A DNA stretch of 44,355 nt, from NCBI GenBank assembly GCA_011390785.1, contig JAABRR010000030.1, positions 1 through 44,355 of the forward strand. Direction: 5' to 3'. Positions 20 through 40,875 of this stretch are shown one piece after another. Source of the DNA: Sphingobacteriia bacterium (GTDB lineage Bacteria; Bacteroidota; Bacteroidia; Bacteroidales; UBA7960). Position 1 is the stretch's first letter. The number at the start of each line of letters is the position of its first letter. The notes under the pieces are model-generated. The model was given only the letters and a program-made list of their open reading frames with translations. It was not told the DNA's origin and did not search any database. Position numbers and translations under genes: made by a program.

Positions 20-730
20 TCAGTTAAAAAATTTATCATCCTGCCAGTTTGCAGGATTGTTTCTGATGTATGTTGAAATGCGTTGAAATTCTTCATTGTT
101 CCTGATAATGCGATCGTGATAACGCGATTGCCAGGCAAAATCCGGATGAATTAACCTGGCATTTTTCGTCACACCGGTTTTAAATCCCCGAATGATAGAC
201 GCCAGATTTTTGGATTGGGGGCCGAATTGGTTTTGGGGTGGGGATGGCGTAGAGACGCAATGCATTGCGTCTGTACGATTGGGTTCGTTGGTGTCGGTTT
301 TTGTTGTAGAGACGCAATGCATTGCGTCTCTACGTTGTGCCAAATCCAAACGTCCGGGACCATCCGGCCGTTGTTGTTTTTCCCATTTCATATTATATTC
401 ATTTTCCCCGATAATGATAATGGCGTGAAAATGGTTGGGCATGATCACGTATTCACCCATTTGTAAATTCATATCGGGACGCATTTCGAATGTTTTTATC
501 CATTCGGATTGCGCAATCTGGCCGATGGGTGATAATGAGACGCATAGCATTGCGTCTGTTCCCATCTGCATTTCCCCAAACCAGGAAATGCGGTTTTGTG
601 TGCAGATGGTTACAAAATATGCGGCATTCCGGCCATAATCCCAGTTTTTTAACCGGGCGGAAGGGATCCGGTATTTATTTTGAAATTTATCAGACATGGT
701 TTGGTAATTATTGCAATCCGGGCACAACAT
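20..730 (-). CDS. REP-associated tyrosine transposase (RAYT, IS200/Y1-like) with palindromes inside the gene
   Basis: This is a single-strand HUH-type transposase of the Y1/IS200 superfamily, the RAYT branch that acts on short extragenic palindromes. In the 236-residue reading the HUH motif is MPNHFH (His100, His102) and the likely nucleophile is Tyr221 in STYIRNNPANW. The start may be the internal Met12 (position 697), where the usual N-terminus (MSDKFQNKYR) begins. Residues 59-65, 134-142 and 153-161 (DAMLCVS, RDAMHCVST, TDAMHCVST) are encoded by three copies of one palindrome, all in the same phase, so the frame stays open. The first lies in the loop before the catalytic His motif, the other two in the linker before the conserved FGPQSKNLASIIRGFK block. 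Nothing suggests it belongs to a complete IS. The gene call and family are secure; activity is unknown. Confidence 0.88.
   Translation of the reverse strand: MLCPDCNNYQTMSDKFQNKYRIPSARLKNWDYGRNAAYFVTICTQNRISWFGEMQMGTDAMLCVSLSPIGQIAQSEWIKTFEMRPDMNLQMGEYVIMPNHFHAIIIIGENEYNMKWEKQQRPDGPGRLDLAQRRDAMHCVSTTKTDTNEPNRTDAMHCVSTPSPPQNQFGPQSKNLASIIRGFKTGVTKNARLIHPDFAWQSRYHDRIIRNNEEFQRISTYIRNNPANWQDDKFFN
249..276. repeat. 28-bp palindrome, copy 1, inside the RAYT gene
   Basis: GTAGAGACGCAATG followed by its near-perfect mirror; one mismatch from the symmetric form (CTGTAC instead of CTCTAC at the end). It encodes TDAMHCVST in the transposase. Confidence 0.9.
306..333. repeat. 28-bp palindrome, copy 2 (perfect), inside the RAYT gene
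   Basis: A perfect palindrome: GTAGAGACGCAATG and its exact reverse complement. It starts 57 bp (19 codons) from copy 1 and encodes RDAMHCVST on the minus strand. Confidence 0.93.
537..558. repeat. Degenerate copy 3 of the palindrome, inside the RAYT gene
   Basis: GAGACGCATAGCATTGCGTC matches the core of the other two copies with an altered centre (ATAGC for AATGC). It encodes TDAMLCVS in the same phase as the other copies. Confidence 0.75.
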
Positions 731-1530: not shown

Positions 1531-2772
1531 TCATTTGGCAATATATCCTCCATCTGTTTTTTCAATTTTTTCAAGATTAATTAACCACAGGAGCCTAAAA
1601 TTGACCTGGGCCAAAGTGCTCCAATTAACGTCAAAATTCTCCACAATATACTCTAGAACCTCTTGATCAGACTTTGGCTCAGGGCTACTAACCAAAAATT
1701 GATATACTTCTTCAAATGCCATAATATTTGATGAGATAGTTTTAAAAAGGAATTCTAAGTTTTTATTGGTAAGATATTCCTCTCCAGCTACAGTTAAAGA
1801 ACAATCCCCATCTATAAAGTCAATAAGACCCATATTTTTTGGCACAGTCAGATAACCAGTAGCAGTTTTCTTTGATGTAACATTATCAAAGGATTCTACA
1901 AACCAATGAATTAATTCATCCCGATTACTTTTCTTTTTTACAATTCGATCCAACAATTGGTTTAAGGTATCAATATAGGAGTATATGCCCCCAGGTAGTG
2001 GCCAAATAGAACGACTTTTATTCTCACTTCCTTTTAAGGTTGAATCGGCTAACTCATTTTCAAAAAGCTCTGAGTCTATTGAATAAACACTGACGGTTTC
2101 TTCTTTAACACCAACTTTATACTTGAAAAGAAGATCAATTAATTTTTGACCGTTTACAAGGGCAACAGGCATTTTATTAGTTGCTTTTGATTCGTAAAGA
2201 GCGTCTTTGGTGAAATCTGATGTAGTAATGATTAAACCTCTTTGGTCTACCTCAGCACTTCCTCTGAGTTGAGTGATATATTTACCAGAAATATTGTTTC
2301 CAGTCTTATACCTTTTTACTTGAATAACAGTTTTTACATTTGTAAGGCCGTCAACTGTCAAGTTTGCGACTACATCTATTCCTTTATCACCGCTGCGTTT
2401 AGTCACATCAACATTTTCATAACCTATTTTTCTTAAAAGTTCAGCTGCCAAATACTCAAACTGAAACGGGTCCATTTCCTGTACTTTCTCGATCAGCTTT
2501 TGTTTAACTAGATTATTTTGGTTTTGAATTGCTAGTAGCGGAGATTTAGCAGATTCTGTTTGTTTAACAAGAGCAAAAAGTCCTTTACCTACTTTCTTAA
2601 ATTTCGCAGAGTCAGTATACAATTGAGCAGCCATTGTGGCGTCAGGAGTTGCACCGGAAGTTTCTATTAGTGCTTCTTCCAAGGCAATTTTCGTAATCTC
2701 TTTTGCAGTAAGAGGTTCTTCCGCTTCTTTCAATATTCTAACTGCTGCTTCTTTAAAAGATAGTTTCTTCAT
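1531..2772 (-). CDS. Mrr-like restriction endonuclease with N-terminal HARE-HTH domain
   Basis: Residues 1-70 form a HARE-HTH winged helix (FKEAAVRILKEAEEPLTAKEI, then YTDSAKFKKVGKGLFAL), which is often fused to nucleases and thought to read DNA modification. Residues 95-215 are an Mrr_cat (PD-(D/E)xK) domain: Glu111, the SGDKGIDVV loop with Asp133, and the QVK motif (Gln151, Lys153), so the active site is intact. Type IV enzymes of this class cleave modified foreign DNA. Residues 265-413 form a third, mostly helical domain that I do not recognise; its last part (WSTLAQVNFRLLWLINLEKI) resembles a winged helix. No methyltransferase is adjacent, consistent with a stand-alone type IV enzyme. The defence role is inferred from the family. 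Confidence 0.85.
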   Translation of the reverse strand: MKKLSFKEAAVRILKEAEEPLTAKEITKIALEEALIETSGATPDATMAAQLYTDSAKFKKVGKGLFALVKQTESAKSPLLAIQNQNNLVKQKLIEKVQEMDPFQFEYLAAELLRKIGYENVDVTKRSGDKGIDVVANLTVDGLTNVKTVIQVKRYKTGNNISGKYITQLRGSAEVDQRGLIITTSDFTKDALYESKATNKMPVALVNGQKLIDLLFKYKVGVKEETVSVYSIDSELFENELADSTLKGSENKSRSIWPLPGGIYSYIDTLNQLLDRIVKKKSNRDELIHWFVESFDNVTSKKTATGYLTVPKNMGLIDFIDGDCSLTVAGEEYLTNKNLEFLFKTISSNIMAFEEVYQFLVSSPEPKSDQEVLEYIVENFDVNWSTLAQVNFRLLWLINLEKIEKTDGGYIAK

Positions 2773-16494: not shown

Positions 16495-16576
16495 CCCCCT
16501 TTGAAGGGGGGTGGGGGGATGTTTTTAGGTTTTAGCCATCCTTTAACAACATCCCCCTAACCCCCTTCAAAGGGGG
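16495..16576. repeat. Nested inverted repeat rich in C/G runs
   Basis: Two arms of about 29 bp (16495-16523 and 16548-16576) are inverted copies of each other, and each arm contains its own palindrome CCCCCTTTGAAGGGGG. The spacer is about 24 bp. Palindromes of this CCCCCTTNGAAGGGGG type are widespread in Bacteroidota genomes. It could fold as one long stem or as two short hairpins. No T-run adjoins. Confidence 0.85.
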
Positions 16577-16644
16577 AATTACGCTTCGTCCAACGGTTCC
16601 GAGCATAGAAAATGTTTTTTTCTTTGGTCAGCCTTACATCAATA

Positions 16645-16689
16645 TTTATCCGCGTGTGTGTCAAAATTTTTGTAATGGCTCGGTTCATC
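16645..16689 (-). repeat. Terminal fragment of the dispersed 173-bp element
   Basis: On the minus strand it reads GATGAACCGAGCCATTAC and continues through ACACACACGCGGAT, matching the first 45 bases or so of the full copies. The hairpin core is absent. Confidence 0.75.
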
Positions 16690-21576: not shown

Positions 21577-21750
21577 GATGAACCGAGCCATTAAAACAAT
21601 ACTTACACACACTCGTATGAATATAATTTCGCAGCATGGCAAAACATGCAGAATGAATATTGTTGGTGATTTATCCCGCTTTTCGCGGGAGCTCTCTCGT
21701 CATAAAAGACGAGACAAGCTATCTGACCGAATTAATAAAATTATAAACAG
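21577..21750 (+). repeat. Dispersed hairpin element, copy A
   Basis: About 174 bp, from GATGAACCGAGCCATTA to ATTATAAACAG. It contains a small stem GCATG/CATGC near 21632-21650, then a core at 21668-21728 with stems CCCGC/GCGGG and CTCGTC/GACGAG, the second extended by AGCT ends. The core is identical to copies B and C over 61 bases, whereas the first 90 bases differ at many positions. The frame through it is not shared with copy B, so it is not coding. Confidence 0.88.
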
Positions 21751-21768: not shown

Positions 21769-21875
21769 AGATTGGCTTCGCCGAGCTTACGGTTCCTCAC
21801 TCCGTTCGGAATGACAGTTACTTACGTCTTTACAACGAAAGCCTTATCATTTCGACCGAAGGGAGAAAACTCGAA
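21769..21875. repeat. Imperfect inverted repeat of a common Bacteroidota intergenic type
   Basis: TTCCTCACTCCGTTCGGAATGA on the left faces TCATTTCGACCGAAGGGAG on the right as imperfect inverted arms. A short hairpin GGCTTCGCCGAGC precedes it. No coding potential. Confidence 0.5.
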
Positions 21876-39152: not shown

Positions 39153-39325
39153 GATGAACCGAGCCGTGACAAAAATTTTGAAACATATACGGATGATTAT
39201 AAATCGCAGCATGGTAAAACATGCATTCAGAGTTTTGTTGGCGATTTATCCCGCTTTTCGCGGGAGCTCTCTCGTCATAAAAGACGAGACAAGCTATCTG
39301 ACCTATTTAATCAAATTATAAACAG
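39153..39325 (+). repeat. Dispersed hairpin element, copy B (leader of the epimerase gene)
   Basis: About 173 bp, GATGAACCGAGCCGTGAC to ATTATAAACAG. It has the stem GCATGGTAAAACATGC and the 61-nt core (39243-39303) with stems CCCGC/GCGGG and CTCGTC/GACGAG. It ends on the base before the epimerase ATG (39326), so it forms the 5' leader, if transcribed. Confidence 0.88.
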
Positions 39326-40303
39326 ATGGATAAAGTTTTAATAACAGGCGCAGCTGGTTTTATTGGATTTCATCTGACCAGGCGGTTATTGGGTGAGAAT
39401 TATCAGGTGATTGGAATTGATGAGCTTAACGACTACTATTCAGTTGATCTAAAAAAAGATCGGTTGGCTGAACTTGGTTGGAGAAAAGGGGAAAACAATG
39501 AAAATTTTCAATTCTACCAGTTTAGCACTTATGACAGAAGGGCCATTGAAGGTCTTTTTGAAGACAATAAATTTGATTTTGTAATCCATCTTGCAGCACA
39601 GGCAGGTGTAAGACACAGTATTGACAACCCTTACTCCTATACGCTAAGTAACATCGAAGGATTTCTGCCTATTCTGGAAGCATGCAGAAATCATCCACCA
39701 AAACATATGATCTTTGCCAGCTCCTCCAGCGTTTATGGAAACAGTAATAAAATCCCTTTTGATGAAACAGATGTTGTAGATAAACCAGTAAGTCTGTATG
39801 CTGCTACAAAGAAAGCTAATGAATTAATGGCCTATACGTATAGTCATTTGTATAATATACCAATTACAGGCTTACGATTTTTCACTGTTTATGGCCCGTG
39901 GGGCAGACCAGATATGGCCTATTTTAAGTTTGCAAAAGCAATTTTAGATGGTAAACCCATTGATGTTTACAACAATGGTAATCTTAGAAGAGATTTTACT
40001 TATATTGATGATGTGGTGGATGGGATTTGTGGGTTACTGAAAAAGCCTTCAGGTAAGGAGCCGCCGTATAATATTTTTAATATTGGGAATTCAATACCAG
40101 TCAACTTGTTGGAGTTTATAAATATTTTGGAAGATAAACTCGGGAAAAAGTCCATAAAATCTTTCAAACCTATGCAGGCAGGTGACGTTTATGAAACCTA
40201 TGCATCGGTTAAAAAGATAAGTGATTACATTAACTATCAACCCAGGGTTAATCTTGAGACAGGGCTTCAACGTTTTGCAAATTGGTTTAAAGATTATTAT
40301 TGA
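39326..40303 (+). CDS. NAD-dependent sugar-nucleotide epimerase (UDP-glucuronate 4-epimerase-like)
   Basis: A 325-residue extended SDR. The NAD loop is TGAAGFIGFH (7-16), the active-site Tyr158-x-x-x-Lys162 is in SLYAATKKANE, and Ser135 lies in ASSSSVYG. RFFTVYGPWGRPDMAYFKF and the C-terminal MQAGDVYETYASVKK match UDP-glucuronate 4-epimerases (GAE/CapI group), so C4 inversion of UDP-GlcA to UDP-GalA is the best guess. No other nucleotide-sugar or polysaccharide gene lies nearby; it stands between two copies of the dispersed element, suggesting it moved or that the rest of a cluster was lost. Confidence 0.9.
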   Translation: MDKVLITGAAGFIGFHLTRRLLGENYQVIGIDELNDYYSVDLKKDRLAELGWRKGENNENFQFYQFSTYDRRAIEGLFEDNKFDFVIHLAAQAGVRHSIDNPYSYTLSNIEGFLPILEACRNHPPKHMIFASSSSVYGNSNKIPFDETDVVDKPVSLYAATKKANELMAYTYSHLYNIPITGLRFFTVYGPWGRPDMAYFKFAKAILDGKPIDVYNNGNLRRDFTYIDDVVDGICGLLKKPSGKEPPYNIFNIGNSIPVNLLEFINILEDKLGKKSIKSFKPMQAGDVYETYASVKKISDYINYQPRVNLETGLQRFANWFKDYY

Positions 40304-40501: not shown

Positions 40502-40699
40502 TTAGGTCCATTTTTCGGGTTGGTTGGACATGGTGACGAGCATACCAATTATGCTATTACAGCTTGCATCTAATCGTGTATAAGTTTCCTGATCGATGTA
40601 ATTAAATACAAGGGCAAAATCCAGCCAGACCTGTGTTTCTGCTGCTTCAGATTCGGAATCGGTTTGTTTTGAAACAAAATGTTTAGGATATTTTCTTTT
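40502..40699 (-). pseudogene. C-terminal remnant of a four-helix-bundle (23S rRNA IVS-type) protein
   Basis: On the minus strand the frame reads KRKYPKHFVSKQTD, SESEAAETQVWLDFALVFNY, IDQETYTRLDASCNSIIGML, then SNQPEKWT and a stop. A-E-x-x-x-T-Q-V-W-L-x-F-A is the signature of the four-helix-bundle family (S23/IVS proteins), near its C-terminal half. The first half of the gene is missing: the frame is blocked by a stop at the boundary with element copy C. This small open region has no start codon of its own. Confidence 0.8.
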
Positions 40700-40703
40700 T
40701 CAT

Positions 40704-40875
40704 CTGTTCATTATTTGATTCAATAGGTCAGATAGCTTGTCTCGTCTTTTATGACGAGAGAGCTCCCGCGAAAAGCGGGATAAATCGCCAACGATATACT
40801 GGCTGGGTGTTTTACCGTACTACGAATTATAATCATCCGCGTGTGTGTTAAAGTTTTTGTCATGGCTCGGTTCTG
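40704..40875 (-). repeat. Dispersed hairpin element, copy C (inverted)
   Basis: The same element as copies A and B, on the minus strand, with an identical 61-nt core at 40726-40786. The first arm differs (GTACGGTAAAACACC replaces the GCATG stem). Its 3' end (minus strand) abuts the four-helix-bundle remnant with AACAG followed by an ATG in a non-coding frame. Confidence 0.88.

Follow-up and report, generated by a model that had tools for sequence, protein, structure and literature searches.

Introduction

BOX elements, known from Streptococcus pneumoniae and S. suis, are small interspersed repeats that are regarded as parasitic (PMC3049150), and IS110 bridge RNAs pair with both donor and target (PMC11208160). 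Here, we analysed a dispersed, structured repeat in a 44,355-nt stretch of DNA from a Sphingobacteriia bacterium (contig JAABRR010000030.1 of assembly GCA_011390785.1), referred to below as the window, which is one of the 158 contigs of a 4.8-Mb draft genome (the host genome). Three copies of the repeat, called A, B and C, had been noticed in a first-pass annotation of the window. We found that this repeat is one subfamily (subfamily 1) of a superfamily that is present across the host's order, the named relatives being mostly labelled Bacteroidales. In our view, it is probably a non-autonomous mobile element with a bipartite guide, the fold of which holds together both ends of the element and its target, ATGAA.

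Results

An internal bipartite segment can pair with both ends of the element and with the flanking ATG

The minimal unit in the host genus is about 126 nt long and reads, in the aligned copies, TGAACCGAGCC...TTGTTGGCGAGCTCCATCTGACC...AAATTATAAACAG, usually followed by ATGAA. Copies typically start with (A)TGAA and finish in a trinucleotide such as CAG, directly 5′ of ATGAA. There are no terminal inverted repeats, as the ends read TGAACCGAGCC and AAACAG; each end is complementary to an internal segment, rather than end to end. This segment, the guide, is bipartite (e.g., TGGATGTT-C-CATCTG): the left half can form one stem, which we call P1, with the element's 5′ end (AACATCCA), and the right half another, which we call P2, with its 3′ end and the flanking ATG (CAGATG), with optional hairpins between the two halves. 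This pairing logic became visible through further subfamilies. The guide is, moreover, close to the reverse complement of the junction between tandem copies (CAGATGAAACATCCA; 14 of 15 positions, compared by hand).

The stems were examined for covariation in 14 distinct rows, in which both sides had changed in six of the 14 pairs of P1 and P2, with a score of 0.246 compared to 0.086 (standard deviation 0.018) for shuffled and 0.027–0.048 for slid controls. In other genera, P2 takes the forms CATCTG/CAGATG, CATCCG/CGGATG, CATGTG/CACATG, CATATG/CATATG and CATCAG/CTGATG, among others. The constant ATG fixes its outer three pairs, and the inner three were paired at 0.957 in 109 of 113 copies (the other four were left out of the counts), versus a shuffled mean of 0.814 (maximum 0.859). 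When the segment was rechosen for each shuffle, the shuffled mean was 0.813 (maximum 0.850), and when it was taken by position alone, pairing was 0.948 against 0.806 (maximum 0.847). Within subfamily 1, one pair of P1 covaries (Fisher p = 3e-4, with 39 of the 118 copies unparsed in this tally). The guide started with T in three of the six copies followed by ATA, compared to 22 of 221 followed by ATG (p = 0.02), a weak hint that guide and target may go together.

Individual sequences folded more strongly than the subfamily-1 alignment. P2 was present in the folds of all eight copies tested as well as of copy B, and folding z-scores for eight copies ranged from −1.94 to −4.18; copy A, which has lost its ATGAA, does not form P2. 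The flanking ATG was paired upstream in 189 of 228 minimum-free-energy folds, compared to 48 of 228 mononucleotide shuffles (one for each copy). A de novo scan for elements composed of a 5′ arm, a guide and ATGAA, tuned on the known copies, returned 13 elements and none in reversed sequence. In summary, the comparison shows both pairings, P1 and P2, to be maintained as the sequence changes.

The element often docks at start codons, and copies elsewhere are mostly in the sense orientation

ATGAA stands directly after 104 of the 118 subfamily-1 copies with enough flank. The first-pass annotation had missed that the 3′ end adjoins an ATG, which in copy B (171 nt, 39155–39325, plus strand) is the start codon, at 39326, of an NAD-dependent epimerase gene (39326–40303, plus strand; PF01370 and PF16363). 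In the host genus, 51 of 126 copies adjoin an open reading frame (ORF) of at least 90 codons that starts at the flanking ATG (137 copies before those with little downstream sequence were dropped), compared to eight starts among 50 non-coding ATGAA sites in the window (p = 0.002). For matches in other genera the cut-off was 70 codons, and 79 of the 108 classifiable ones (five of 113 were dropped for little downstream sequence) adjoin such an ORF (p = 1e-11 against the same background). Here, the presence of ATGAA after 111 of the 113 matches is partly built in, since the model contains ATGAA, but the share of starts is not. Without the sites at the window's own copies, the background was six of 42 (p = 4e-11 for the other genera and 0.002 for the host genus), and in 30 loci of the host genome, the copies themselves included, 32 of 169 ATGAA sites were starts; these backgrounds all derive from a single genome. 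A few of the start calls are open to doubt, for instance that in locus L039, where the real start seemingly lies downstream.

Copies of the host genus that are not at a start (n = 48, in loci of at least 2 kb) have a co-directional next ORF in 31 cases, an opposite one in nine and none in eight; those lying between co-directional genes are sense in 21 cases and antisense in three. The start of lpxB carries the element in two genomes of different families (locus L347 in G116 and L310 in G203), the partial proteins matching NCBIfam lpxB at 176 and 177 bits, respectively. The start-codon and sense biases hint at a targeting linked to transcription or translation; the same pattern could also result if insertions elsewhere were selected against.

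Copies are dispersed within genomes, across the order and on viral contigs

A DNA search found 44 matches in the host genome at E ≤ 0.001, more than chance would explain, and matches in 12 of 31 genomes and two of 20 genera. The model R1, built from 30 minimal copies, gave 48 matches in the host genome at E ≤ 0.01, of which the weakest (L395 and L396) are doubtful, and 285 at E ≤ 1e-4 across all 12 genomes of the host genus (summed by hand). Across the order, model R2 had matches in 76 of 247 genomes, which belong to 66 of 174 genera; the copy counts are lower bounds, with 13 candidates scored per genome. The named records that contain the motif ACACACGCGGATGATTATAAT are genomes from metagenomes and carry the label Bacteroidales, apart from one genome labelled Sphingobacteriia.

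A within-genome burst is seen in G250, where 11 copies of 100–112 nt average 93.5% identity and their flanks 50–53%. All 11 are at starts, the ORFs that follow them have no fewer than 176 codons, and the 11 genes are unrelated. This genome has 13 matches, of which one was left out, and a tandem pair on L337 was excluded by the length filter; in this pair, one copy is at a start and one is followed by the other copy. Occupancy differs between orthologues of rlmH, with the element at the ATG in two of the nine with a readable start and absent from seven (RlmH family confirmed by NCBIfam; a tenth match lacked its 5′ end and was not counted). No empty site was obtained at base-pair resolution, as the rlmH flanks could not be aligned between species. 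Other insertions are common to different species: L033 and L054 are one orthologous copy with the same flanks, and L062 and L072 look alike; such related or orthologous copies were counted separately.

Tandem copies share one ATGAA. In the single-contig genome G231, three tandem copies follow each other with a 131-nt spacing (C1:824925–825322, L282). Among the 118 copies, 92 have A on the left and ATGAA on the right, 12 have only the right ATGAA, 11 only the left A and three neither, and the left-flank base is A in 87% of copies. Exceptions such as a left ATGAA with a right ATGGA in L008 would speak against a target duplication, and departures on one side are not matched by departures on the other.

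Copies of the superfamily were also accepted on three viral contigs (L362, L363 and L387). One copy precedes a short gene that weakly matches tail families and has sheath and tape-measure genes nearby, one precedes a cement protein gene, and one, whose gene is uncertain, is at the edge of its contig; the copy regions before phage structural or tail-region genes are 8700–9170 in L363 and 6960–7020 in L387. Named phage and plasmid collections held no match to one subfamily-1 copy, three other search patterns gave nothing in the viral contigs, and a search for an element-free relative of the L363 gene returned the same contig only. A further 23 viral stretches from one pattern, mostly repetitive coding sequence, displayed no 5′ end of the element and were dropped.

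The two hairpins are optional modules

The 61-nt core was identical in the three window copies, as the first-pass annotation had reported: it lies at 21668–21728 (plus strand), 39243–39303 (plus strand) and 40726–40786 (minus strand), and no further match turned up in the window when as many as 12 substitutions were allowed. Copy A (172 nt, 21579–21750, plus strand) is flanked on the right by TAAAA instead of ATGAA and adjoins no start codon. Copy C (171 nt, 40704–40874, minus strand) is followed on its own strand by an ATGAA (40699–40703) that opens a frame of six codons only. The partial fourth copy, first placed at 16645–16689, was recovered both by the DNA search (16642–16689, minus strand) and, as a degenerate copy at 16579–16687 (minus strand), by model R1 (E = 1.2e-6). 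Indels between aligned copies break any shared frame, from which the repeat was judged to be apparently non-coding, in agreement with the first reading.

Between pairs of the copies A, B and C, the arms differ at 20–24 of 88–89 positions and none of the 61 core positions differs. That the core is spared while the arm diverges is borne out as a difference in rate: among the 12 full-length copies of the host genome, the arm had a mean pairwise difference of 0.174, the core one of 0.077 and the 3′ tail one of 0.243. Complete identity is not general, however, since it occurs in six of 66 pairs, that is, among four copies. Hence, the core is constrained or exchanged between copies, and is not immutable.

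In copy A, the core comprises both optional hairpins, HP4 (TCCCGCTTTTCGCGGGA; 21674–21690, plus strand) and HP5 (CTCTCGTCATAAAAGACGAGA; 21694–21714, plus strand), and the right half of the guide (ATCTGACC). In the window copies, both hairpins are inserted between TTGGCG and ATCTGACC; HP4 is absent from minimal copies, and HP5 has stem variants in other copies. Among these variants, the hairpin sequence changes while the stem stays largely paired. Neither hairpin is present in 30 of 63 copies, which are 123–128 nt long, and both are present in 16 (read by eye from the copy list), in a sample that was drawn mainly with a 174-nt query and so favours full copies; three copies were dropped before the alignments A1 and A2. 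A similar hairpin is placed elsewhere, after ACACAC, in L017, L018 and L023, and the orthologous copy L033/L054 carries different hairpins in the two species. The two hairpins are thus optional modules and not the essence of the element, a point on which the first-pass annotation was wrong or incomplete; what persists is the internal bipartite segment. At the other extreme, L389, a 61-nt match in the host genome that includes the ATGAA, retains hardly anything besides P1 and P2; the viral contig L387 has a similar short form, and the smallest forms, reduced to little more than these stems, are about 56 nt long.

Other repeats and genes of the window were noted in passing. A stretch just past copy A (21770–21819, ending TTCGGAATGACAGTT) looks like another interspersed repeat. 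Palindromes of the CCCCCTTCAAAGGGGG type at 16560–16576 and in L019 (508–605) are perhaps a further dispersed hairpin repeat; the one in L019 forms a long hairpin with a sub-threshold Rfam match to mir-3817. A Mrr-type restriction endonuclease with a HARE-HTH domain is encoded at 1531–2772 (minus strand).

Discussion

Alternative explanations

The copies could be REPIN- or PATE-like DNA elements moved by a Y1 HUH transposase of the RAYT or insertion sequence (IS) 200 type, which would act on the bottom strand 3′ of TTCAT. On that strand, TTCAT precedes most insertions (the 104 of 118 above), no duplication is provable, a subterminal sequence is complementary to the cleavage region, and the host genome holds four sub-threshold RAYT-type matches and two Y1 matches. 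Against this, none of the 20 Y1/RAYT locus records (18 distinct places) was bounded by subfamily-1 ends when scanned with the subfamily-1 model, one having a copy within its 1.5-kb flank; the left flank is non-random, with its frequent A, and the share of start codons would not be expected from a plain pentanucleotide target. We consider this explanation unlikely. The miniature inverted-repeat transposable element (MITE) moved by the RAYT at the left end of the window, one of the options of the first-pass annotation, is not supported. The dispersed and structured nature of the repeat, and mobility as an option, were rightly recognised. Separately, the RAYT-like ORF itself (20–730, minus strand) matches NCBIfam REP_Tyr_transpos at 56 bits, below the cut-off of 80. 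Its protein has repeated DAMLCVS/DAMHCVST stretches, suggesting a repeat inside the coding sequence, and a palindrome (GTCCGGGCACGAC..GTCGTACCCGGAC, at about 809–840) lies beside it and is possibly its repetitive extragenic palindrome (REP).

A cis-regulatory leader RNA, with a 5′ untranslated fold in which P2 would hide the start codon and control translation, and copies kept for this function, could account for the start-codon docking in both sets of genomes, for the covering of the ATG by P2 in most predicted folds, for the folding z-scores, for the sense orientation of non-start copies to the next gene (31 versus nine) and for the occupied lpxB starts in two genera. The genes downstream of docked copies look unrelated, however, when read by eye, and 75 of the 126 copies of the host genus adjoin no ORF of 90 codons. 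The element is also missing from seven of the nine rlmH orthologues, and it bursts within a genome (G250). Start-docked and other copies (n = 47 and 66) fit the family models alike (p = 0.96 and 0.46), which speaks against a gene-serving function. A leader RNA as the reason for the copies is thus unlikely.

A guide-RNA element in the manner of the IS110 bridge RNAs, with a DEDD recombinase supplied in trans, would fit the pairing of one internal segment with both ends (as the tandem junction) and with the target, much as the bridge RNAs pair with donor and target (PMC11208160). There is a single guide segment instead of two loops, and the absence of a PF01548 match from the host genome leaves an IS110 link unsupported; the explanation is very unlikely. 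Finally, old immobile repeats homogenised by gene conversion, which would suit the different hairpins of the orthologous copy L033/L054 and the insertions common to species (L033/L054, and L062/L072, which look alike), are most improbable given the near-identical copies at unrelated loci in G250, the differing rlmH occupancy and the copies on viral contigs.

A probable mobile element with a start-codon-pairing guide

As the Y1/RAYT loci are not bounded by the subfamily-1 ends, the IS110 recombinase is absent from the host genome and no long version was found in the loci examined, we favour a mobile element with a bipartite guide as the probable explanation. In its favour are the covariation of P1 and P2, the near-identical copies with dissimilar flanks in G250, the differing rlmH occupancy, the share of start codons, the different hairpins of the orthologous copy L033/L054, the short form in the host genome and the copies on viral contigs. 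In such a mechanism, a folded single strand, either RNA or DNA, would hold both ends and the target ATGAA together, and a recombinase or transposase supplied in trans would act on the folded strand. Tandem copies would arise because the own end of each copy recreates the target, and the core would be conserved because it carries half of the guide and because copies exchange modules. An element at a start codon would become part of the 5′ leader of the gene.

A more specific and bolder version, which we consider unlikely, is that the element RNA, via a guide complementary to AUGAA, inserts or recombines at start codons during transcription or translation. This would be a reverse-splicing-like or RNA-guided class of element that chooses start codons and not a DNA motif; the 11 of 11 near-identical G250 copies at starts, the 21:3 sense bias and the near-complementarity of guide and junction are consistent with it.

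Several observations weigh against a mobile guide element. No mobilising enzyme, and no longer autonomous version with both ends, was found in the loci examined, mostly with 1.5-kb flanks, and the IS110 recombinase (PF01548) had no match in the host genome (G000), the only one searched. In the 14 rows used for covariation, the guide was picked by its pairing, and the rows are related, so the shuffle controls overstate significance. RNAalifold gave a weak structure for the subfamily-1 alignment (−4.2 kcal/mol), and alignment A3 shows double changes in only one of 12 pairs. Wobble pairs give a mixed picture of the strand: at P2 positions 1–5, 42 G.T versus four A.C were counted on the sense strand, and at position 6, 21 A.C versus one G.T (19 of 250 copies unparsed). 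The antisense strand is slightly more stable (−27.0 versus −24.8 kcal/mol), the sense strand being lower in 66 of 228 cases. The start calls rest on ORF length, which 29 of 108 and 75 of 126 copies fail, and most copies have an ATGAA on either side, which means that a 5-bp target duplication may have occurred.

If this explanation is true, a mobile element that base-pairs with start codons has supplied the leader of more than 100 genes in the genomes analysed (51 + 79 start-docked copies), with rlmH, lpxB, the epimerase gene and structural genes of phages among them. A parasite would then have a new means of locating sites where it is tolerated, and the element would be both a ready supply of novel 5′ leaders and a natural guide of compact size, about 56 nt at its smallest.

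Comparison with known systems

No Rfam family reached threshold over the element (the window at gathering threshold, and 9 + 15 loci at relaxed thresholds), and the element could be placed in no known family. Sub-threshold overlaps with copies of other subfamilies by mir-4000 in L192 and L204 (21 bits versus 58) and by SpF10 in L186 (26 versus 60), and by Ysr197 at the edge of copy B in L008 (17.6 versus 167), were taken as chance. A literature search found no description of start-codon-docked repeats in this group in titles and abstract openings, which is no proof of absence. RF02033 (HEARO/IscB omega RNA) was not among the Rfam matches in the window and the 24 loci. HEARO elements are reported by Weinberg et al. 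(2009) to be located 5′ of ATGA or GTGA. The present element is much shorter than HEARO or omega RNAs and is without an ORF (PMC9755519).

With the IS110 bridge RNA, it has in common a non-coding segment complementary to the donor junction and the target, whereas the bridge RNA has two loops and is encoded with its recombinase, and the element has one guide segment and no recombinase in the host genome (PMC11208160). REPIN/RAYT systems likewise involve short palindromic non-autonomous repeats, and RAYT-like genes are present in the host genome; the element, however, is not two inverted REPs, and the RAYT/Y1 genes are not bounded by its copies (PMC3116915, PMC2817692). Like a MITE, it is short, apparently non-coding and dispersed in many copies (48 in the genome and 285 in the genus); unlike a MITE, it has no terminal inverted repeats. 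The BrickBuilt MITE of Porphyromonas gingivalis, a species of the Bacteroidales, is also modular and intergenic with a variable number of inner repeats, but consists of 23-nt tandem repeats between a leader and a tail (84–991 nt), and its terminal inverted repeats resemble the ones found in IS elements of that species (PMC4596501).

BOX elements resemble the element described here in that their end modules are conserved, their inner modules vary in number and an RNA fold is predicted; they have terminal inverted repeats and target duplications, and start-codon docking is unmentioned in the part of the source seen (PMC3049150). The element, which is without such repeats, differs from BOX in that its 3′ end pairs with the flanking ATG. 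Among the known kinds, BOX elements are the closest in style.
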